Of a stretch of DNA of 64,000 bases, positions 26,348 to 43,741 are shown one piece after another. The notes below the pieces were generated by a model. It was given only the letters and a program-made list of their open reading frames with translations, was not told the origin of the DNA and ran no database searches. Position 1 is the first letter of the stretch; every line of letters begins with the position of its first letter. The DNA comes from an uncultured Pontibacter sp. (GTDB lineage Bacteria; Bacteroidota; Bacteroidia; Cytophagales; Hymenobacteraceae), in NCBI RefSeq assembly GCF_947499215.1, contig NZ_CANMNI010000002.1:992001-1056000 (forward strand). The letters are read 5' to 3'. The position numbers and the translations under genes are program-made.

Positions 26348-26854
26348 TCAGGACTCATACTTGTCCCTGAATTCCTTCATCAACAGCTGATATTCCTCGT
26401 TCTCTTTTGCCTCCTCCCACTTTGCTTTGAATATCCGTGCTGACTCCGCTTTCACAGGATCCGGGTCCAATGGTAACTGATCCCGCCCATGGGCACCGCT
26501 CTGCCCTTTCTTATCGTCCGGCACAGGTCCCTTGTATTTCTGCCCGGTGCGGTGGTTGGCATAACGGCGGGAGCGCGTATAGCCCATCTGCAAAAACTTG
26601 CGTGCCATGTCAGCGCCTACAAAGTCGTTCTGCCGCACGTAGTCCAGAAACAGCCCGTAGATATGCTCCGACGACTCGCGTGCGATCTCGGGCGTTTTAA
26701 AGCGCCAGTGCGGCAGGATCTCCGACTTATACGGTTCTACCAGTAAAACGCCCTGCTCCCCTTTCCCGATACGGTATAGCTCCGGATTTTTTCTGAAATC
26801 GGTATTATTGAAGTCCAGTTCGTAATTAAAAGTTTTCCTTTTCGGCTGTTTCAC
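26348..26854 (-). CDS. DUF4385 family protein
   Basis: The 168-residue protein carries the DUF4385 pattern: a YRIGKGEQGVLLVEPYKSEI block (about residues 26-45) then LPHWRFKTPEIARES. The middle is basic and the end acidic. It has no signal or membrane helix. The family's role is not known. The start is GTG at 26854, inside the last codons of the antiporter gene (29-base overlap), so the two genes are translationally coupled on one message. No in-frame ATG exists further upstream. A fold similar to YdeI is not visible. Confidence 0.7.
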   Translation of the reverse strand: MKQPKRKTFNYELDFNNTDFRKNPELYRIGKGEQGVLLVEPYKSEILPHWRFKTPEIARESSEHIYGLFLDYVRQNDFVGADMARKFLQMGYTRSRRYANHRTGQKYKGPVPDDKKGQSGAHGRDQLPLDPDPVKAESARIFKAKWEEAKENEEYQLLMKEFRDKYES

Positions 26855-28904
26855 TAGTATACCCTGTCGTCTTTATTTGGTTATCCTGATACAAGTTTGG
26901 GTACTGCTCCGGATAAATGATGATAAAACTGTTGTCTTTGTAGTTACGTGATAGTACGCGCGGCACTGTATCCAGCGTGCCGTTGTAGGACACCGTGGAT
27001 TTGCGCGCTGACACTACCACCACCATGTCATCTTTGCTTATGCCCGTCTGGTTTTTCTCAAATTCGGCCATGGTAGGACGTGGCATGTATGTAGCGTCTA
27101 TGGCAGGCTTGCTATTCTTCACAACTGCCTTAAGCCTATTCAGTGTTCTTCTGCCAGTCATGAACACAACTTTGGCCCCCAATTGTGTTGCCAATAATCG
27201 GATCGCTCTCATCCACCTTAAAAAGCCTCTCTCGAGCTCGGCGTTCGCCGGTACGATTACCACTAATCGATTTGTGGTATTCAGTGGCTGCATGATTTTG
27301 CATACCAGTATCATCTGCTCTGTGTTGTTGAGCAGGTTATCAAGTATAGTACCGAATATCCTGTCTCTGGTAGTGATTTTGGCATTCCATCCTAAAACCA
27401 CCTCTGTGATCATGAGTTCCTTGATAGCGCGGAGTATACCGCTTGCCACGTTGATATCTATTTTTGATACAAGCTGTACGTCATGGTCTGTTGCTGATGC
27501 GTGTTTGATCGCTTCCTGCAGCATTTTGTTCTTCTTGTATATCTCCTCCTCTGCGTGCTCATCGTCTATCACGACCGCCAACGGATATATCGGTTCATGG
27601 TACTGTGGGTTTTTTAGCATGATGGCCAGATCCACCAAGCTCTCGAGTGTTTTCGGATTGCCGATTGGCACCATAATGCGATCTGGCTTATCGCTCAGAT
27701 TCGGCTGTTTCCGGCTTTCAATAATCGCTAGTATCCGTGCCGCTTTTTCTGTAATAAAAGAACTACCCAGCGAGGTGGCCAAGATAAGAACCACAGTCAG
27801 GTTGAGAGCCGTTTCCCCTATTATCTCTAACTCATACCCAACCAGTATCACTGCAAGTGTAGCCGCGGCTCTCGCCGTACTGAGCCCAAACATCAGATTT
27901 CGCTGTGTGATGGTATAGCCATATAACTTTTGGGTAATGTAGGCCGGAACCCATTTGGTAACCAGCGCCAGTACAATGATGACGATGGCCATTAAGATGA
28001 TCTCTACACCCTCGAACAATACTGTCACATCCACTAGCATTCCCACGCTAATCAGAAAAAACGGAACAAAGATATTGTTGCCTACAAACTCCAGTCGGTT
28101 CATCAAAGCTGATGTATGGGGAATGAGTTGGTTTAGCGCTAAACCCGCTAGAAAGGCTCCTAAGATAGCCTCCACACCTGCCAACTCTGCTAGAAACGCA
28201 GCTGCAAATACAAGCGTGAGCACAAAGATGAACTGTGCGCCTTTCTCACTCTCTATTTGCTTAAAGAACCATTTTGCTAGGATGGGAAACACAAATACCA
28301 CTATGGCTACGAAAACGGAAAGCGATACCATCAGCTTTATCCAGTAACCTACTCCGATATTACCTTGGGCTACACCTGCCACCACCGCCAGCACCAGAAG
28401 CACGGCAGTATCCGTAATAATAGTTCCTCCTATCGTTACAGTCACTGCCTCATTTTTTGTTAGTCCGAGTTTACTCACAATCGGATAGGCCAGCAAGGTA
28501 TGGGAAGCAAACATGCAGGAGAGCAGCACTGCTGAGTTTATCTGGTAATCGTACCCATAGAAGAAGAGTATTGTGCCTGATATCATCGGTATTAGAAATG
28601 TGAGGGCCCCGTAGACTATGCTTCTTACTTTTGTCTTCTTGAAGCCTATCATATCCATTTCTAACCCCGCCAGAAACATGATATATAGGATGCCTACCGT
28701 TCCAAACAGAATCATGCTGGCGTCCCGCTGTAACAGGTTAAAACCGTTCGGTCCTACAATCACTCCTGCCAGTATCATACCCACTATGCCCGGTATCTTC
28801 AGCCTGTTCAATAAAATTGGTGCCACTAATATGATCAGGAGCACCAGCGTGAATATCAGAACCGGATCCTCAAAGGGAGGAACCAGTTTTAAAAGTAGTG
28901 TCAT
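26826..28904 (-). CDS. CPA2 cation:proton antiporter with C-terminal USP-like domain
   Basis: This is a 692-residue protein. Residues about 10-390 are a Kef/NhaA-type exchanger domain with roughly 12 helices and the sequence LAGVEAILGAFLAGLALNQLIP, which holds the acidic ion-binding helix crossover region. The C-terminal 290 residues (DRIMVPIGNPKTLESLVDLA onward) are cytoplasmic and resemble tandem universal stress protein folds, which may bind nucleotides and gate the carrier. It probably exchanges Na+ or K+ for H+. The ATG at 28904 is used. The DUF4385 gene overlaps the end. No KefF or TrkA-N domain is visible. Confidence 0.85.
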   Translation of the reverse strand: MTLLLKLVPPFEDPVLIFTLVLLIILVAPILLNRLKIPGIVGMILAGVIVGPNGFNLLQRDASMILFGTVGILYIMFLAGLEMDMIGFKKTKVRSIVYGALTFLIPMISGTILFFYGYDYQINSAVLLSCMFASHTLLAYPIVSKLGLTKNEAVTVTIGGTIITDTAVLLVLAVVAGVAQGNIGVGYWIKLMVSLSVFVAIVVFVFPILAKWFFKQIESEKGAQFIFVLTLVFAAAFLAELAGVEAILGAFLAGLALNQLIPHTSALMNRLEFVGNNIFVPFFLISVGMLVDVTVLFEGVEIILMAIVIIVLALVTKWVPAYITQKLYGYTITQRNLMFGLSTARAAATLAVILVGYELEIIGETALNLTVVLILATSLGSSFITEKAARILAIIESRKQPNLSDKPDRIMVPIGNPKTLESLVDLAIMLKNPQYHEPIYPLAVVIDDEHAEEEIYKKNKMLQEAIKHASATDHDVQLVSKIDINVASGILRAIKELMITEVVLGWNAKITTRDRIFGTILDNLLNNTEQMILVCKIMQPLNTTNRLVVIVPANAELERGFLRWMRAIRLLATQLGAKVVFMTGRRTLNRLKAVVKNSKPAIDATYMPRPTMAEFEKNQTGISKDDMVVVVSARKSTVSYNGTLDTVPRVLSRNYKDNSFIIIYPEQYPNLYQDNQIKTTGYTSETAEKENF

Positions 28905-29460
28905 ATTTTCGTGTTTGTGTATATTCTTTTTGCTGTATAAATATAAGATTTAATTTTTTAGGCTTCTTTCCGCTCTGTCTTCTTCCTCCTTATTCTCTCC
29001 CTAATTTTTCCTTTTCCGGCCCTAGTTTTCCATCTTTCCACATCTTACCTGACCTTATTAATTTTAATTAGATAAATTCTTTAAATAAATCTTCTTTCAT
29101 CATTAAGGCTGTTTAAAAGTTGATAACTGTGGAACATCTCGACTTGTCAACTCTTATATTTTGTATACTTTCTCTCTTCACTTCTTTTCCCACAATTATT
29201 TTTTACACTGTTTTATGGCTATCAGTGTTTTAAGTCTCTTTTCCACTTTTACCCATTCTATGTGTGTATCTTTTTTCACATTGCGCATGCTCCGTGGAAA
29301 AGCTTTTTTTCATGGGGTACTTGTGCACCCCTTTCCACTTTTTTGGTGTTCCATGGGGTCTTTATGCGTAGTGTGGAACATCCACATTTTGAGTTATCAG
29401 ATTTAACCCACCTTTGTCCACACTTATACCCACCAAATATGTGGATTTCTAAACATGTTT
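28905..29460. other. Candidate chromosome origin (DnaA-box-like cluster)
   Basis: This 555-base, strongly A/T- and pyrimidine-rich stretch has no credible gene. It holds six TCCACA/TGTGGA cores: 29037-29042, 29128-29133, 29372-29377, 29381-29386, 29417-29422 and 29440-29445. Chance would give about 0.2 in the 410 bases between the first and last. The best 9-mer is TTGTCCACA (29414-29422), one mismatch from TTATCCACA. Further TTTTCCAC-type words are at 29239, 29294 (inverted) and 29331. An A/T-only-rich run at 29055-29092 would suit a duplex-unwinding element. mnmG and a perfect parS lie about 3-5 kb to the right. The shadow ORFs here are not genes. Confidence 0.5.
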
Positions 29461-30022
29461 TTTGAAATCATCATTCAGCTTAATTTTTCTTCTGTACTGC
29501 TCCTAATTTAAGTTAGTACGGGAGAACCTTTTTATTATTTGCGGCTTCCTACTTTTGTTTACTCGTGTTTTTCACGCACTATGGTTCAGTGTCTGTGTAG
29601 TCAACTAAAGCTACAGGCGTAAGCTAATGTTGAATGGATGCTGGCTTTGAATACGAAGCTTTCTTGTGTTCATGATTTGTGTATGCGCTAAGGAGGACTT
29701 ATCTTATTATAATAAATTTGATGTGCCACCATGTTATTCCAACTGGCATACCTTCCATACTTAATTGATGTCTTTACAACTATGATTTCGTGTCTGAGAG
29801 TATCAGTTCTACTAGTTCTGTGTAACAGTTCATGGGCCACATTTTAGGTCATGCTCCCTGTATACTTAGTTAAGGTTTCTTTCGCTATACGATCTACTAC
29901 GCTTATTCAGGATTTCTCTGCTGTTGACGAACTCGGGGCTTAACAGCTTTCTTTTAGCTTTGAGCTATTTTGCTTCGGTGATATCCACGCATTTTTGGTT
30001 AGACATTCTATAGTTATGGGCA
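29461..30022. other. Noncoding stretch of unknown role
   Basis: About 560 bases follow the DnaA-box cluster without a gene I can support. It is less A/T-rich than the left half and has no long repeat. TAAATTTG at 29713-29720 fits TAnnTTTG but has no properly spaced -33. It may be part of the origin region, or a long leader or remnant. Confidence 0.3.
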
Positions 30023-30023
30023 T

Positions 30024-30053
30024 AAAAAAAGGAGCTTCAGCAGCTCCTTTTTT
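30024..30053 (-). terminator. Intrinsic terminator
   Basis: AAAAAAAGGAGCT and AGCTCCTTTTTT pair around TCAGC. It is a symmetric, strong terminator directly after the stop of the Ig-like lipoprotein gene on the minus strand. Confidence 0.85.
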
Positions 30054-30054
30054 G

Positions 30055-31662
30055 TTAAAACTCGATGTTCTCTTCCATTTCCCAGTTGGCCCTTATTTCT
30101 AAGGGTTTACTATGTATGTATACCTGCTCAGGTTCTTTTAGGAGTTCCGGGTCTCCTCCATCCCACTTACCATTATTGTTGGCATCTAAAATTACACGAA
30201 TGTAGTAGGTACCGGGTTCTATGTTTCTAAAATCATAGGCTTTTATATTGCGTGCCTCCCGCTTTATCCTGAACTGACTGTCAACCAACTGTACGATGTA
30301 GTGTTGCTGCTGCGTCTTAACTGCGCCTCTCACATTGCCGGCTCCTTTCGCTTCGGCCACCGTCACCTGCATGGCAGGGAAGCTGAGTTTTTCGCCTTGC
30401 ACAGGGGCAATTCCTACGCTATCGAGCATAATGGTAGCCTGACGGTTATTGCTTGTCCAGCGCGGCATCACGAATATCAATTCTGTGCCTGTCTGGTCGA
30501 GTATTACCTGATTAGGATAAGTTAAACGGGCCACTTCTATGGAGTCAATAAGTAGCCTAACAGGTTCTTTTGAATTTATCCTGATAGGTGTTTCCAATTC
30601 TATTACCACCCGTTGGCCTTCATTAACTGTGCCGCCGGCTGTTCCATTTGCTTTTAGTTGGGCTCCTCTTACTTGTTGGGCTCTTTTGCCTTCAAAGGCT
30701 ATCTGAACAGTATCCACTGCGCGGTTAGCAGCTGAGTCAAGTGCCGTTAAGATTGCCATGCCTCCTGTAAACCTGTTGTCACCGAATAGATCGACTATCT
30801 TACCGTCTGCTGATATTTTATGAATTAGGGTATCTTTAAGTGACTCTACCGGTCTCGCTAAGAAGCTTTCTACCCCTTCATTGTAATTGGCTATAAAGCG
30901 ATCGGTATACCTTTCGCGACGTTGCAGGATTGGTTTCTTCGTATCTATTCTGACAGTTTGCAGCACTACCTCCTGTGGCTTGCTTGTTACCTGTATAGGT
31001 TCTGACCTGTAGGCTATGCGCTCATCTTCGCTATCGTAAAGTGAGTTATCGTTTTTATCAGTTAATGCGAAGATCCTATACTCTCCGTCTTTTAGGTTTT
31101 CGAAGTTAAACTCTCCGCTAGCATCCGTCTGCGTCTGGTAGTATGGTCGGCTTTTCCGGATACTCAGTGTGTCATTGGTTGGGTACAGCGCTACTACTGC
31201 TTCATTTTCTGGGCTCTGGTTTAACAGCTGCACCACACTCCCGCCTATCCGGCTTGAATCTATGAAGCTGCCTGTGCTAAATGTAAGCAACAGCCCTTCT
31301 GCAGTGTTTTTTTCAGTTATATCTTGGATGCCTTTTCTGAAGTTGAAGGTATAAGTAGTGTTCTGCTCAAACGGCTGATCGAATATTAACTCTAAGGTAG
31401 TGCGACTTGACTTTACGCGGTACTCGTTATCTGTGAAGGGCGTGATGAGAAGCTCCTTGTTTAAATTGTTTGGCTGGACTTCTTCGTCAAAAGTAAGTGT
31501 GATTGTATTGGTGCTTACATTCAATTCCCGTGGTTTTGGATTACTACTCAACAGTTGCGGCGCCTCCTCGTCCTTAGGGCCTCCTTCTGGATTGTTTATA
31601 CTCGCACAGGCTGTAAGTGCCGCGATGGCTGCAGTGGTCAATACGCTGTTGAAAAATTTCAT
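30055..31662 (-). CDS. Ig-like (Big_5) domain lipoprotein
   Basis: This is a 535-residue envelope protein. A signal peptide with the lipobox L-T-A-C (Cys19) leads to PEGGPKDEEAPQLLSSNPKPR, then a Big_5/SbsA-type Ig-like domain at about 30-130 (NTITLTFDEEVQPNN, then TYTFNFRKGIQDI). Several beta-sandwich segments follow, and a C-terminal domain resembles prealbumin-like carbohydrate-binding folds (GEYRIFALTDKNDNSLYDSE; YYIRVILDANNNGKWDGGDP). It is probably anchored to the outer membrane. Proteins of this form are very common and uncharacterised in Bacteroidota. No enzymatic residues are seen. Confidence 0.7.
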   Translation of the reverse strand: MKFFNSVLTTAAIAALTACASINNPEGGPKDEEAPQLLSSNPKPRELNVSTNTITLTFDEEVQPNNLNKELLITPFTDNEYRVKSSRTTLELIFDQPFEQNTTYTFNFRKGIQDITEKNTAEGLLLTFSTGSFIDSSRIGGSVVQLLNQSPENEAVVALYPTNDTLSIRKSRPYYQTQTDASGEFNFENLKDGEYRIFALTDKNDNSLYDSEDERIAYRSEPIQVTSKPQEVVLQTVRIDTKKPILQRRERYTDRFIANYNEGVESFLARPVESLKDTLIHKISADGKIVDLFGDNRFTGGMAILTALDSAANRAVDTVQIAFEGKRAQQVRGAQLKANGTAGGTVNEGQRVVIELETPIRINSKEPVRLLIDSIEVARLTYPNQVILDQTGTELIFVMPRWTSNNRQATIMLDSVGIAPVQGEKLSFPAMQVTVAEAKGAGNVRGAVKTQQQHYIVQLVDSQFRIKREARNIKAYDFRNIEPGTYYIRVILDANNNGKWDGGDPELLKEPEQVYIHSKPLEIRANWEMEENIEF

Positions 31663-31740: not shown

Positions 31741-32628
31741 TTATTTCTTTTTCGCAACAAATATAAGACTCGAATAGTCATTGCCGTTTTTCTCTGCATA
31801 GCTATTCGACTTATACCCGTTTACCACACTACTGATCATTTTTGTCTTCCCCTCTTTCTGCTTTTCGCTCAGCATGCTTACATAGTAGGCATCAAATTTC
31901 ATTGGTAACACTTCCTCTAGCATCATCTTGTGCTTTTTAAGTAAGCGCTTCATTGTGGGCTGCGTGAAATGGTAAAGGTGGCGCGGCACATCATAGGCTG
32001 CCCAATTTGCTTTGTACTGTTGTGCATCATGTGAATCAGCATTGGGCACGGCTATGATTAATGTGCCGTCGTCCTGCAAAAGGTTGATCAACTCCACCAT
32101 CGTTTCATTTAGCGTATGGATGTGCTCCAGCACATGCCATAAGGTAATAACCTCAAACTTCTCCCCCGCTATTTCACTTAAATCTTTTGCTATCAACTCA
32201 CCCGTCAAGGTAGAGGCTTCCTCGCGGGCGCGTGCATTAGGTTCCACACCTCTTACCTCCCAGCCGTCATTCTTGCAGGCACCTAGAAAAACACCGGTTC
32301 CACAGCCATAGTCAAGTATAGCGCCTTTGGCTGGAGCATATCTGTTTATAAGCTCTACCTTTTGCTTCGTTGTAATGGAGCGTACCACATGATAGGCTCT
32401 GTTGATAATGCCTGTCTTAATGTTGCTGTGCGATATGTATTCCTCGGATTCGTAGTACTTATCAATACTATCGACGTCCGGTCGCGGGTTCGTGAATTTG
32501 AACGAACAGTTCTCGCATTCCACAATTACAAAGCTCTCTTTTGAGACAGCGTTGTCGGTTACTACCAAGAAGTTTTTAAAGTCTTCTTTGCCGCATATCG
32601 GGCATTGCTCCAGTCTTTCGTAGCTCAT
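31741..32628 (-). CDS. SAM-dependent methyltransferase with N-terminal zinc-ribbon
   Basis: The 295-residue protein opens with a Cys4 cluster (C-P-I-C ... C-E-N-C, residues 8-40), typical of methyltransferase type 12 proteins with a zinc ribbon. A class I methyltransferase fold follows, with motif I ILDYGCGTGVFL (about 105-115), the acidic end VEP of strand 2, and VITLWHVLEHIH. A C-terminal region near 230-290 is poorly conserved. The substrate is unknown. The stop codon directly abuts the start of nothing else; the mnmG stop begins at the next base, so the two genes are adjacent with no gap and cotranscribed. Confidence 0.8.
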   Translation of the reverse strand: MSYERLEQCPICGKEDFKNFLVVTDNAVSKESFVIVECENCSFKFTNPRPDVDSIDKYYESEEYISHSNIKTGIINRAYHVVRSITTKQKVELINRYAPAKGAILDYGCGTGVFLGACKNDGWEVRGVEPNARAREEASTLTGELIAKDLSEIAGEKFEVITLWHVLEHIHTLNETMVELINLLQDDGTLIIAVPNADSHDAQQYKANWAAYDVPRHLYHFTQPTMKRLLKKHKMMLEEVLPMKFDAYYVSMLSEKQKEGKTKMISSVVNGYKSNSYAEKNGNDYSSLIFVAKKK

Positions 32629-34491
32629 CTATTTGCCAAGGTATACCATAAGTACCGAAATGTCAGCCGGCGACACACCGCTTATGCGTGATGCCTGTCC
32701 GATTGTTTCGGGCTGTACACGCAATAGTTTCTCGCGTGCTTCAGCCGATAAGGCCGGTATATTACGGTAGTCGATTTTTTCTTTAATGTTATAGTTCTCG
32801 AGTTCGCCCATCTTAGCAGCCATCGTGTGCTCTTTCACGATGTAGCTCTCATACTTTACAGCTATCTCAGCTTGCTCTACGCTATCGGCCTTGAACTTAC
32901 TCAGGTATTCTTTCACGGCAGGAACAGCTTCAGCAATATGCTGAATTTCAATATTCGGTCGTTTGATCAACTGACCGGCGCGCTGCTTTTCTACAATTGG
33001 AGCCGATCCCATCTGCTCCAGCATGCTGTTGATATCTCCCGGCTCGATCGGCTTATTATTTAAGTAAGCGATGATTTCTGCTGTTTCTGATATCTTCTTA
33101 TCCACAGCTTTCAGACGGTTTTCATCGGCCAATCCGAGTTCATATCCTAGCCTTGTTAATCTGATATCGGCGTTATCCTGACGCAGAAGTATACGGTGTT
33201 CTGCTCTTGATGTGAACATACGGTATGGCTCTTCTGTCCCCTTATTCACTAAGTCATCGATGAGCACGCCAATGTATGCTTCGGATCTCTTCAGTATAAA
33301 CGGTGCTTTCTCGTTTATCTTGTTGTGTGCATTTATACCTGCCATCAGACCTTGGCAAGCCGCTTCCTCATACCCTGTTGTACCGTTTATCTGACCCGCA
33401 AAGTATAGGTTCTCCACCAATTTGGTTTCGAGTGTCAGATTAAGCTGGGTAGGTGGGAAAAAGTCATACTCGATGGCATAGCCCGGTCGGAACATTTTGG
33501 CGTTCTCAAAACCTACAATCTTGCGAAGCGCTTTTAATTGCACGTCCTCCGGCAGTGAGCTTGAGAAACCATTCACGTATACCTCTACTGTATTCCATCC
33601 TTCCGGTTCCACAAAAATCTGGTGACGGTCACGATCGGCGAAACGGTTGATCTTGTCTTCTATGGATGGGCAGTAGCGTGGACCTAATCCCTGTATGCGT
33701 CCTTGAAACATCGGCGATTTCTCAAAGCCTGTTTTCAAGATCTCATGTACATCTGAATTGGTATAGGTAATGTAACAGCTTCGCTGCTGAGCCAATGGTG
33801 TAGTTTCGGTATAAGAGAACTTAGATGGGTTTTCATCTCCGAACTGCTCTTCCATTCTAGAATAGTCAAGTGAGCGTCCGTCTACGCGTGGAGGTGTTCC
33901 TGTCTTCATGCGACCCGCCTCAAAGCCAAGTTCGATCAACTGTTCTGTCAGGCCTTTCGCTGATTTCTCTGCTGACCTGCCACCTCCCATCTGCTTTTCG
34001 CCGATGTGGATAATACCATTCAAAAAGGTGCCATTGGTTAAAACAACAGCCTTTCCACGTATAGTTATCCCCAAGCTGGTACGTACGCCAACAGCTCTTC
34101 CATCCTTCACTTCTATACCTGTTATCATTTCCTGCCAGAAGTCCACGTTCGCCGTTTGCTCTAGCGTCAGGCGCCAAGTTTCGGCAAAACGCATGCGGTC
34201 ACTTTGTGCTCTCGGGCTCCACATGGCAGGTCCTTTCGATTTGTTGAGCATGCGGAATTGGATCATCGTCTCATCGGTGATGATACCGCTCATACCACCA
34301 AGTGCATCGACCTCTCGCACGATTTGTCCTTTTGCCACGCCACCCATTGCCGGGTTGCATGACATCTGGGCGATGGTGTTCATGTTCATGGTTGCCAACA
34401 GGACTTTGGATCCCATTTTGGCAGCTGCGGCAGCGGCTTCACAACCGGCATGACCCGCGCCTACAACTATGATATCGTATTCTGGAAACAT
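32629..34491 (-). CDS. mnmG: tRNA U34 modification enzyme MnmG
   Basis: MnmG (GidA) works with MnmE to put a carboxymethylaminomethyl group on U34 of certain tRNAs, using FAD and tetrahydrofolate. The 620-residue protein has the N-terminal FAD motif GAGHAGCEAAAAAAKMGSKV (residues 11-30). CNPAMGGVAKGQIVREVDALGG holds the catalytic-Cys region, and GTFLNGIIHIGEKQMGGGR is conserved. The C-terminal helical domain binds MnmE. Usual length is about 620-630. In many bacteria the gene lies beside the chromosome origin; here a parS site is in its upstream gap. The methyltransferase gene follows immediately. Confidence 0.97.
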   Translation of the reverse strand: MFPEYDIIVVGAGHAGCEAAAAAAKMGSKVLLATMNMNTIAQMSCNPAMGGVAKGQIVREVDALGGMSGIITDETMIQFRMLNKSKGPAMWSPRAQSDRMRFAETWRLTLEQTANVDFWQEMITGIEVKDGRAVGVRTSLGITIRGKAVVLTNGTFLNGIIHIGEKQMGGGRSAEKSAKGLTEQLIELGFEAGRMKTGTPPRVDGRSLDYSRMEEQFGDENPSKFSYTETTPLAQQRSCYITYTNSDVHEILKTGFEKSPMFQGRIQGLGPRYCPSIEDKINRFADRDRHQIFVEPEGWNTVEVYVNGFSSSLPEDVQLKALRKIVGFENAKMFRPGYAIEYDFFPPTQLNLTLETKLVENLYFAGQINGTTGYEEAACQGLMAGINAHNKINEKAPFILKRSEAYIGVLIDDLVNKGTEEPYRMFTSRAEHRILLRQDNADIRLTRLGYELGLADENRLKAVDKKISETAEIIAYLNNKPIEPGDINSMLEQMGSAPIVEKQRAGQLIKRPNIEIQHIAEAVPAVKEYLSKFKADSVEQAEIAVKYESYIVKEHTMAAKMGELENYNIKEKIDYRNIPALSAEAREKLLRVQPETIGQASRISGVSPADISVLMVYLGK

Positions 34492-34510: not shown

Positions 34511-34526
34511 TGTTTCACGTGAAACA
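34511..34526. promoter_or_regulatory. parS centromere site
   Basis: TGTTTCACGTGAAACA is a perfect 16-base palindrome identical to the consensus ParB/Spo0J binding site. It sits in the 66-base gap between mnmG (start 34491) and ybeY (stop 34558). ParB loads on parS near the origin and, with ParA and SMC, helps separate new chromosomes. No parA or parB gene is in the window. Confidence 0.85.
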
Positions 34527-41320: not shown

Positions 41321-42556
41321 TTATTTGTTAGAACCGGCGTTGATCATCGCGCAACGGAAACCGATTGTTGCAGTAGATGAATCCTGTGCCATGAATCTTC
41401 TAGTACCTGGAGACAGCCAGTAAGCTACGTCTTTCCAAGAACCGCCTTTGAAAACACGAACCTCGTTGTTGATCAAAGAGTGGTAGCCTTCGCTAGAGTC
41501 ATACTGATCAGCCTCGTCCAAGTAACCGTCTCTACGGAATGGATTCAAGTCTTCCACGTCTTGGAAAGAAAGCGGACGGTAGATGTCCTGTACCCACTCG
41601 TTTACGTTACCAGCCATGTTGTACAGACCGAAGTCGTTTGGAGGGTAGCTGTAGATATAGTCCGTAATCATGGCGCCATCGTTCAGTGAGCCAGCCACAC
41701 CGGCATAGTCACCACGGCCACGCTTAAAGTTAGCTAGGAACTGGCCCATCTGCTTGCCGTGCGGGTTACGCAGTTGGTGTCCATCCCAAGGGTAAAGTCT
41801 TCTATTATTCTGGTTTTCGTCTTCGTTGTACTGTGTACCGATCAAAGCCTGTGCAGCATACTCCCACTCAGCCTCCGTTGGGAGACGGTAGTTCGGAAGC
41901 ACGTAACCTGACTCGATAGAAAGTGCGGTAGGCTCGGTAGGCTCTTGTGCGGCTCTTCTGCCGAACAAGCCTCTTCTTTCGCTGCTAGCACCACCAGCTT
42001 CTTTAGCTAGGTTTTCGTTTACCTTAGCCGTACGCCAAGTACAGTAGTCGTTAGCCTGCAACCAGCTTACACCCACAACCGGGAAGAAGCGGAAACCAGG
42101 GTAACGCAGGTAGTACGTTACATAAGGGTCATTGAAAGAAAGCTGACGGGACCATACGGTTGTATCAGGCAAAGCGGCCGTGTATACCTCCGGAATAGAG
42201 TCTCTCTTCAGGTAATGCAGGTACTCCAGCCAGTGGATGTTAGCCACTTCTGTTTCGTCCATGTAAAACGAAGCAACAGTCACCGTGCGCTCAATGTTGT
42301 CACGGGTCATGGCGATGTCTTCCTCCATGGAGCCGAGTGTGGTGCGACCACCCTCAATAAATACAAGACCCGGAGCCTGAGGGAAGTCTTCGTAATCGTT
42401 TACCTGAAACGCGGTTTCATCCTCGTTGTACTCTATACCCGTGGCCGAGCTGTAATCGCCTGGGTCAGTGCTCGTTGGATAGCCGCCCCCTCTACCGCAC
42501 GATGCAAGGAGAGCTCCCCCTACAACAACTGCTGATACATACTTAATAAGCTTCAT
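41321..42556 (-). CDS. gldJ: GldJ-like gliding motility lipoprotein (SUMF1 fold)
   Basis: This is a 411-residue protein. A lipobox L-L-A-S-C (Cys20) marks it as an envelope lipoprotein. It carries a formylglycine-generating (SUMF1/FGE) fold with GLVFIEGGRTTLGSM at the start, FYMDETEVANIHWLEYLHYL, GVSWLQANDYCTWRT and NEVRVFKGGSWKDVAYWL. The opening (IEYNEDETAF, then EVYTAALPDTTVW) is closer to GldJ than to GldK. GldJ is needed for gliding and for stability of the type IX secretion machinery. The FGE fold here is thought to be structural rather than catalytic. A PorP/SprF gene lies just upstream. GldK cannot be fully excluded. Confidence 0.7.
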   Translation of the reverse strand: MKLIKYVSAVVVGGALLASCGRGGGYPTSTDPGDYSSATGIEYNEDETAFQVNDYEDFPQAPGLVFIEGGRTTLGSMEEDIAMTRDNIERTVTVASFYMDETEVANIHWLEYLHYLKRDSIPEVYTAALPDTTVWSRQLSFNDPYVTYYLRYPGFRFFPVVGVSWLQANDYCTWRTAKVNENLAKEAGGASSERRGLFGRRAAQEPTEPTALSIESGYVLPNYRLPTEAEWEYAAQALIGTQYNEDENQNNRRLYPWDGHQLRNPHGKQMGQFLANFKRGRGDYAGVAGSLNDGAMITDYIYSYPPNDFGLYNMAGNVNEWVQDIYRPLSFQDVEDLNPFRRDGYLDEADQYDSSEGYHSLINNEVRVFKGGSWKDVAYWLSPGTRRFMAQDSSTATIGFRCAMINAGSNK

Positions 42557-42619
42557 AGATTAGGACCTACTAATGATAAGGTTCTTTTAATGTAATTTAA
42601 CGTGCAATTATAACTAAAT

Positions 42620-43636
42620 TCAGAATGCCGGACAAACAATGTTATGGTTTATTTTGGACAAGCGGCGGCCTGTGAACAAATTATTTAGATCAAGTTGTTC
42701 AAAAACCAGCGAAATTTCGTTCGCACCTCCTGCCTGCCGACCGAATCCCCTCACTCCCACGTCGTGGCTAAAGCCTATGCGGAGTTGATTTAGGCTAATA
42801 CCGGCGATCAGGGCTAGGCTTTGGTCCTGCTCTGCACCACCGGTTACTGGTACTCCTTTATATATTACTCCTAACGCTAAGGGCGAGTAGATAGTATACA
42901 AGGCAAGGTCAACACGACTAAAATTTTGCTGATGTGTGAAATTAACGGCAGGGCTGATGCTAAACTCCTTATTACCGCGCCCTAAGCCAGTTGGTATGTA
43001 GAACTTATAACCTGCATTGGCGACAAAACGCAGGGGCTGCTTTGTAGTCTCATCGAAGCCGAAAGAGGGTTGGTTGAGATGCGATACACTCAACCCAGTC
43101 CAGAACTGATTATTATACAAAATGCCGCCCACGGCAAAGCTCAGGTAGGAAGCCGGGTCAAAATGAAGCGCTTCTGCCGAACTCAAAGCTGTCTGGCCGT
43201 TGTCTGTTAGCTGATCCCCGAATACCAAGTTGTCGTAATTGACACGCAGTGAGGCGAGAGAGGATTGCAAACCGGCTGAAAAGGCGAGATTTTCCGTTAA
43301 ACCAGTATGGTAGGCATAGGCCAACGAGGCCTGTAGTTTTTGTAATCCGCCAATACCGGCTCGGTCTTGCTGTAGTACCATCCCGATTGCACTTTTAGTG
43401 CCCTCGAAACGATAGTCGCCGGCAACTTGGTTGGTAACAAAAGACCCATTGAGGGAGGGCCATTGGTTTCGGTGGGCCACCGCCACGCTCCAGCTGCGCC
43501 CTAGCCCATTAAAGGCCGGGTTTAGGTATAGCCGGTTGGCGTACTGCTGCGTGAAAAGCGCATCCTGCCCTGTCGCCTTTAAGCTACACAGGCAGACGAA
43601 CATGCAAAAAAGAAATTTTGTCAGGGCTTTACGCAT
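42620..43636 (-). CDS. PorP/SprF family type IX secretion outer-membrane protein
   Basis: From the ATG at 43636 the protein is 338 residues. The upstream start would be TTG, and the ATG gives a proper signal peptide (MRKALTKFLFCMFVCLCSLK ending ATGQ). The mature N terminus, DALFTQQYANRLYLNPAFNG, is the PorP/SprF signature. The rest is amphipathic beta strands of an outer-membrane barrel with the typical SFVTNQVAGDYRFEGTKSAI. These proteins anchor or assist secretion of surface adhesins by the type IX system, often next to the adhesin. No large adhesin gene is next to it; the neighbour is the GldJ-like gene, so it may serve the core machinery. Confidence 0.85.
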   Translation of the reverse strand: MRKALTKFLFCMFVCLCSLKATGQDALFTQQYANRLYLNPAFNGLGRSWSVAVAHRNQWPSLNGSFVTNQVAGDYRFEGTKSAIGMVLQQDRAGIGGLQKLQASLAYAYHTGLTENLAFSAGLQSSLASLRVNYDNLVFGDQLTDNGQTALSSAEALHFDPASYLSFAVGGILYNNQFWTGLSVSHLNQPSFGFDETTKQPLRFVANAGYKFYIPTGLGRGNKEFSISPAVNFTHQQNFSRVDLALYTIYSPLALGVIYKGVPVTGGAEQDQSLALIAGISLNQLRIGFSHDVGVRGFGRQAGGANEISLVFEQLDLNNLFTGRRLSKINHNIVCPAF

Positions 43637-43741
43637 ACTTTTGTAGCTCTTCAACGATTAAAGATTGAGAGCGTGATAAATTCCGCATGGTTTTCGCTAT
43701 AAATTATCATAGCTTAGCTTTTACTAAACGCAACCACCTAT

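Follow-up and report, generated by a model that had tools for sequence, protein, structure and literature searches.

A probable chromosomal replication origin in an intergenic gap near mnmG in Pontibacter

Introduction

In many bacteria, the dnaA gene marks the origin of chromosome replication (oriC). Cytophaga hutchinsonii belongs to the same order as the genome analyzed here, which is that of a Pontibacter (Hymenobacteraceae, Cytophagales). In C. hutchinsonii, plasmids labeled oriC reportedly serve as replicating vectors (PMC5288383). In the Flavobacteriaceae, oriC was predicted beside mnmG by Ori-Finder 2022 together with skew, both in Mariniflexile litorale (PMC11278836) and in Algorimicrobium (PMC12843772), as stated in the excerpts available of the two papers. 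The excerpt on Mariniflexile adds that dnaA did not fit the skew, and the legend of a figure in it labels oriC and ter in reverse (PMC11278836). The locus described here resembles these origins, as they are presented in the excerpts, in lying beside mnmG and in being consistent with skew (PMC11278836; PMC12843772); they come from another family of the phylum, and the comparison is one of position, without the box layout or the unwinding core.

With respect to layout, the locus resembles the basal unwinding system (BUS) of bacterial origins. The BUS search rule of Pelliciari et al. (PMC8287927), in the accessible part of that paper, calls for a box and three or more 3′-NAN-5′ trinucleotides, separated by no more than 16 nt, and the spacer lengths peak at 10–13 nt. 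The order of box, spacer and trinucleotides given in the accessible parts of the BUS literature (PMC8287927; PMC6669920) is also found at the locus described here, with a spacer of 11 nt and three trinucleotides.

The E. coli oriC also neighbors mnmG, but E. coli mnmG runs away from oriC, whereas here mnmG runs toward the origin and two genes lie between them. The E. coli elements to be compared are the R1 box and the right 13-mer. In the E. coli sequence (NC_000913.3), TTATCCACA is followed after 13 nt by CTAATAAGAG, and in the consensus obtained here TTATCCACT is followed after approximately 11 nt by CTAATAAC.

Literature searches on Pontibacter “replication origin”, Cytophagales oriC and mnmG/oriC in Bacteroidetes returned no description of the present origin, which DoriC may list, and no title among the matches listed for Hymenobacter/oriC/DnaA concerned a Hymenobacter origin. 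The DNA analyzed here, termed the window, is a stretch of 64,000 nucleotides corresponding to positions 992001–1056000 of contig C2 in an assembly of 4.31 Mb and 6 contigs (G000), and all positions below refer to the window unless a contig is named. A preliminary description of this stretch, made from its letters, proposed that one of its intergenic gaps holds the replication origin. The GC skew, the conserved boxes near mnmG and the lack of a better box cluster at dnaA support this interpretation, and on these sequence-based grounds we regard the region 29034–29448 with high confidence as oriC.

Genomic setting of the gap

The features of the locus are summarized in Table 1. No ORF of at least 90 amino acids is contained in the gap, which agrees with its earlier description as ORF-free; the end of an antisense frame (28618–28953) overlaps the gap by 49 bases. 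Within the genus, the length of the gap ranges from 913 to 2750 bp. The stretch of approximately 570 bp that separates the array of boxes from the lipoprotein gene (29450–30020) is without a gene-like ORF, and a perfect 12-bp inverted repeat, AAAAAAGGAGCT/AGCTCCTTTTTT, which is probably a two-way terminator, is located at 30025–30053, beside the end of the lipoprotein gene. The dnaA gene is found at 274.4 kb of contig C2, approximately 747 kb from the gap.

Table 1. Positions of genes, predicted sites and conserved elements in the window
Feature	Position	Strand	Remarks
Na/H exchanger gene	26826–28904	−	PF00999; runs away from origin; this neighbor changes outside genus
Intergenic gap with probable oriC	28905–30054		Na/H exchanger gene start to Big_5 lipoprotein gene end; equivalent gap in 12/12 same-genus genomes
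Left flanking predicted box CTTTCCACA	29034–29042	+	Points into A/T-rich core; identical in 11/13 Pontibacter
A/T-rich unwinding element (predicted)	29055–29106		88% A+T; among best conserved 20-nt blocks of gap
Conserved core, match of model R1	29063–29135	−	Tandem boxes, spacer, trinucleotides and A/T-rich tract; E 2.6e-12; 42-row alignment
Three DnaA-trio-like trinucleotides TTA ATG ATG	29098–29106	−	3′-AAT TAC TAC-5′ on other strand; 11-nt spacer
G/C spacer GCC	29107–29109	−	Separates boxes from trinucleotides
Second, degenerate box TTTTAAACA (putative function)	29110–29118	−	Order consensus TTATnCACA; one-base overlap with first box
First tandem box (predicted) TTATCAACT	29118–29126	−	Order consensus TTATCCACT; variants in genus
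Predicted box TTTTCCACT	29239–29247	+	TTNTCCAC in 13/13 Pontibacter
Predicted box TTTTCCACG	29293–29301	−	TCCAC kept in 12/13 Pontibacter
Predicted box CTTTCCACT	29331–29339	+	TCCACT in 13/13 Pontibacter
Predicted box TTGTCCACA	29414–29422	+	Nearest consensus; TTNTCCACA in 13/13, perfect TTATCCACA in 4/13
Right-end predicted box AAATCCACA	29440–29448	−	ATCCACA in 9/13 Pontibacter
Big_5 (bacterial Ig-like) lipoprotein gene	30055–31662	−	PF13205; 3′ end borders origin in compared loci; found in 75/80 mnmG loci
SAM methyltransferase gene of conserved block	31741–32628	−	PF13489
mnmG (gidA)	32629–34491	−	PF01134, E 4.1e-164; runs toward origin
parS TGTTTCACGTGAAACA	34511–34526		Perfect; only perfect site in assembly; 5.4 kb from oriC

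The best matches of mnmG in named genomes are from Pontibacter (P. lucknowensis, 97%; P. ramchanderi, 96%; and others). Both mnmG and the perfect parS site reported earlier in this neighborhood were recovered, the latter being a further feature expected close to an oriC. The sequence TGTTNCACGTGNAACA occurs once in the assembly and once in 5 of 6 other searched genomes, always just upstream of mnmG, and the remaining genome (G001) carries a one-mismatch copy of parS in the same place. A perfect parS within 400 nt upstream of mnmG was found in 48 of 74 loci, and perfect parS was rejected on this count as a mark of the origin throughout the order.

In 73 of 80 loci, the lipoprotein, methyltransferase and mnmG genes form a block with the same arrangement and orientation, running toward the origin and against the fork; two further loci miss this count only because their matches touch. 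The preliminary description had raised the leftward direction of the genes at 30–40 kb, toward the proposed origin, as an objection, and this arrangement is real. The lipoprotein gene is missing from five loci. In four of them no more than 4.2 kb of contig is left beyond mnmG, and the remaining locus (L167) extends for 10 kb without the gene. Further to the right, at 41321–43654, the window encodes GldJ (a gliding lipoprotein) and a type IX secretion protein of the PorP/SprF family, 12–14 kb from the origin.

The predicted DnaA-box array and the conserved core

Six TGTGGA/TCCACA hexamers, at 29037, 29128, 29372, 29381, 29417 and 29440, are present in the region 28905–29460, compared with a mean of 0.30 in dinucleotide shuffles, and none of 5000 shuffles reached six. 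For the TCCAC/GTGGA pentamers, the corresponding numbers are 9 and 0.97, and again 0 of 5000 shuffles reached the observed count. The earlier count of six hexamers thus stands, as does their marked excess over chance, which is approximately 20-fold rather than the 30-fold previously given. The cluster is the densest in the examined 663 kb of contig C2, with six hexamers in 420 bp as against at most three elsewhere (overlaps included). As had been noted, the best 9-mer of the gap, TTGTCCACA, is one base from the DnaA box TTATCCACA; most boxes of the array deviate from TTATCCACA by one or two bases, and the three perfect copies in the window (14183, 33098 and 34005) all lie outside the gap. A cluster of DnaA boxes above chance in intergenic DNA, albeit one in which most boxes are one or two bases off the consensus, is a property expected of oriC.

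An alignment of the first 620 nt of 13 gaps, from which G016 was left out, shows the boxes and the A/T-rich segment as conserved blocks, with weaker conservation between them, and TCCAC boxes recur at nearly fixed spacing in the equivalent gap of 12/12 same-genus genomes. Of the six hexamers, just those at 29037, 29417 and 29440 are located in boxes that are conserved across the genus. The hexamers at 29128, 29372 and 29381 are common to 5, 4 and 1 of 13 species, respectively, and degenerate boxes at 29118, 29239, 29293 and 29331, which were not counted in the preliminary description, are kept in the genus. The six hexamers were therefore dropped as a functional set in favor of the conserved, degenerate array.

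The A/T-rich run previously observed beside the boxes is present and conserved, and adjoins the boxes as would be expected of an unwinding element, while the left box at 29034 faces this segment from the opposite side. On the mnmG strand of the window, the best conserved block reads TTATCAACT-TTTAAACA-GCC-TTAATGATGAAAGAAGATTTATTTAAAG. An alignment of 42 rows was made from the window and 41 of the 63 loci in which the core was detected; L174 was excluded manually, and the other 21 were not selected. Its consensus is TTATCCACTTATnCACAGCC CTAATAAC, with A/T-rich DNA after it. When the BUS rule was applied with up to two mismatches allowed in the box, a spacer no longer than 16 nt and a minimum of three NAN trinucleotides, it recognized the core of the window (TTATCAACT, 11 nt, TTA ATG ATG). 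This strict form was recognized in 18 of the 42 aligned cores, compared with 304 of 4200 mononucleotide shuffles (7%); in contrast to the three trinucleotides of the rule, mostly only the first two are well conserved here (CTA/TTA, then ATA and variants). The rule is permissive, since the opposite, T-rich strand of 14/14 gaps also conforms to it.

Conservation of the core in the order and in the class

Profile searches were seeded with 13 Pontibacter rows and iterated, and 80 mnmG loci were fetched, 75 of which contain the lipoprotein gene. In the first pass, for which only Pontibacter was used in training, 30 matches with E < 0.01 were obtained, all at the expected place and including Rufibacter, Adhaeribacter and Hymenobacter. 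The core was finally detected in 63 of the 75 Cytophagales-type loci, on the mnmG-sense strand and 278–3521 nt beyond the point where the lipoprotein match stops, and the model detected no core in the other 12; six more profile matches with E < 0.01 lie on the opposite strand. A cluster of at least three hexamers in 450 bp, located within 4 kb behind the lipoprotein gene, qualifies by itself in 67/75 loci, and the cluster is the densest of its locus in 68/75. Either the core or such a cluster is found in 71 of the 75 loci, and neither in the four from Nafulsella, an “uncultured Bacteroides” MAG, Ohtaekwangia and Dawidia. The word cluster, whose recurrence near mnmG in related genomes had been proposed as a check, does recur there. 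The origin proposed here is of an ordinary kind, and its position is common to most of the relatives compared.

These comparisons also bear on a reading in which the gap is the promoter or leader of the Na/H exchanger gene, furnished with conserved sites for a transcription regulator. The gap directly precedes the start codon of that gene at 28904 and is kept upstream of it in the genus, as such a reading would predict. However, an exchanger homologue is present in the fetched flank of only 11 of the 80 mnmG loci (10 from Pontibacter and one from Botryobacter), compared with the 63 of 75 that have the core. In Adhaeribacter, the next gene is a homologue of a DUF4385 gene (judged by eye against window 26348–26854), and the core stays. 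Since the gene on the far side changes, the conservation of the core and cluster does not follow the exchanger gene. Two promoter-like matches were obtained, no more than in shuffles (3.4 on average), and in 28000–30500 all Rfam families stay below their gathering scores; a promoter or structured RNA was rejected on these two results. Taken as a whole, the exchanger-promoter reading appears extremely improbable, and the origin reading is retained in what follows.

In a genome-wide search, the best match of the sequence-only core model falls at this gap in 13/13 Pontibacter genomes, and the next best match in the assembly containing the window has an E-value of 0.147 (150 of 894 first-look candidates scored). 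The strength of the model in Pontibacter is not independent evidence because the model was partly trained on this genus; its uniqueness within the genome is informative despite that training. Among six genomes of the same order but from other families, only G014 has its best match behind the lipoprotein gene (E 0.003); in G016, the second-best match is found there (E 0.31), and in G013, G015, G017 and G018 the best match lies away from the gene block.

A sample of the class was also searched, comprising 149 genomes (144 from other orders, the present assembly, one of the same family and three of the same order), 80 of which have a core-model match at E 0.1 or better. The position of mnmG was looked up in the 16 other-order genomes whose matches ranked highest (E up to 0.0021). 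Seven of them have the match on the contig carrying mnmG, in every case less than 18 kb from the gene (G034, G037, G053, G094, G103, G115 and G128). The other nine have it on a different contig, and in at least four of these (G160, G028, G155 and G161) the distance from mnmG exceeds 20 kb, judging by the lengths of the contigs. In the four same-order or same-family genomes of the sample, the match is located 2.8–3.6 kb past mnmG. An opening module of the form TTATCCAC-TTATnCACAG-CC-CTAATAAC, followed by A/T-rich DNA and laid out like the R1 box and right 13-mer of E. coli, may thus have been inherited across the class as defined in GTDB, mostly near mnmG and parS and with dnaA elsewhere. We put this forward tentatively, having lowered our estimate from an even chance to somewhat below even because of the four genomes in which the match lies more than 20 kb from mnmG.

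Replication polarity and the position of the origin

The preliminary description had named the cumulative GC skew as a test of the proposed origin. The skew was calculated from sampled stretches, mostly of 20 kb, with 20 stretches each in the relatives G001 and G002, and its sign was found to change in the window and not at dnaA. Of the 19 stretches of contig C2 sampled from 22 kb to 1.036 Mb, a range that spans dnaA, 18 have a negative skew (the exception, near 414 kb, has a value of +0.0008), and the five sampled from 1.036 to 1.28 Mb are all positive. In G002, the skew turns between 4.08 and 4.33 Mb, with the core at 4.206 Mb and dnaA at the start of the contig, and in G001 it turns between 1.78 and 2.01 Mb, with the core at 2.006 Mb and dnaA at 2.83 Mb. 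The change in the sampled stretches is from negative to positive in all three genomes, as is characteristic of oriC. The skew of G016 is weak, with a raw minimum after 2.91 Mb and a mean-centered minimum after 4.26 Mb (core at 3.67 Mb), and G128, which belongs to another order, has two raw minima of almost the same depth, one after 1.64 Mb and one after 3.67 Mb, so that only the mean-centered minimum fits its core at 3.71 Mb.

Gene direction was used alongside the skew. The 16S genes run away from the core in G001 (4/4), G002 (6/6) and G128 (1/1), that is, in all 11 cases from three relatives, and rplB does so in 5/5 genomes; the search for 16S genes gave none in G000 or G016. Such outward orientation is expected at an oriC, and the directions of the 16S genes and rplB therefore identify the turn of the skew as the origin and not the terminus.

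The same data weigh against an origin at dnaA, with the gap serving as a secondary DnaA-binding site. Besides the association of dnaA with the origin in many bacteria, the G002 contig starts beside dnaA, as would suit this arrangement, but that start may merely reflect rotation of the assembly. In none of G000, G001 and G002 does the skew change sign at dnaA, and a fork coming from dnaA would meet three of the ten 16S genes in G001 and G002 head-on. A better box cluster beside dnaA, which the preliminary description had regarded as grounds for abandoning its proposal, was looked for, and only four scattered TGTGGA words were found in the surrounding 19 kb. An origin at dnaA was rejected on the basis of the skew, the box count and the direction of the 16S genes, and we attach practically no probability to it.

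Finer mapping raises a different question, namely whether the true origin is located 10–12 kb to the right of the core, at approximately 38.9–41.3 kb, with the box cluster acting as a DnaA-titrating or regulatory site. A breakpoint fit of the third-position skew, in which gene strand was allowed for, places the turn in G000 at 1030.9–1033.3 kb of the contig, which is the interval in question, and the raw skew minimum of this genome (1032.4 kb) lies 11 kb from the core on its mnmG side; in G002, the raw minimum is on the same side at 9 kb. The fitted interval is, in our judgment, too narrow because the fit ignores the correlation between neighboring genes. In G002, moreover, the fitted interval (4194–4208 kb) includes the core and its box cluster. 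In the interval at 38.9–41.3 kb, TGTGGA occurs once and the ORFs are separated by no more than short gaps, and the one strong match of the conserved A/T-rich core is at 29.06–29.14 kb. From the lipoprotein gene to approximately 40.5 kb, the genes point at the core and thus oppose the fork, and a block of this kind can shift the skew, so the displacement toward mnmG may be an effect of it. An origin at 38.9–41.3 kb is consequently considered very unlikely, and the region 29034–29448 is preferred.

Proposed mode of initiation and implications

If the region 29034–29448 acts as oriC, initiation would be expected to proceed as follows. DnaA, encoded approximately 747 kb away, would bind the right-hand array of TTNTCCAC-like boxes as well as the tandem boxes at 29110–29126, and would extend from there across the G/C spacer of 3 bp to reach the trinucleotides in the neighboring A/T-rich DNA. 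The duplex would probably open within 29055–29106, the helicase would be loaded at the opened DNA, and two forks would leave. ParB, presumably bound to parS at a distance of 5.4 kb, would then move the new origins apart.

This assignment places oriC for Pontibacter and, through the gene block that they have in common, for the majority of the Cytophagales loci compared, and is relevant where sequences may be rotated to dnaA, as that of G002 appears to be. It would fix the replication arms, and with them gene dosage and the estimation of growth rates from read depth. The region also offers a compact fragment for the construction of replicating plasmids, and the conserved core provides a natural test of which parts of the unwinding module are essential.

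Domain IV of the DnaA of this organism keeps the stretch GGRDHSTV near the C-terminus, which has a role in recognition of the box. At the Adhaeribacter locus (L131:14456–15400), the core is kept and TCCAC/GTGGA words are scarce, with 3 in 2.5 kb, words resembling TTATCAAC, TTGTGAAC and GTTCACAA being found instead; judging from these words, a shift in box preference is possible.
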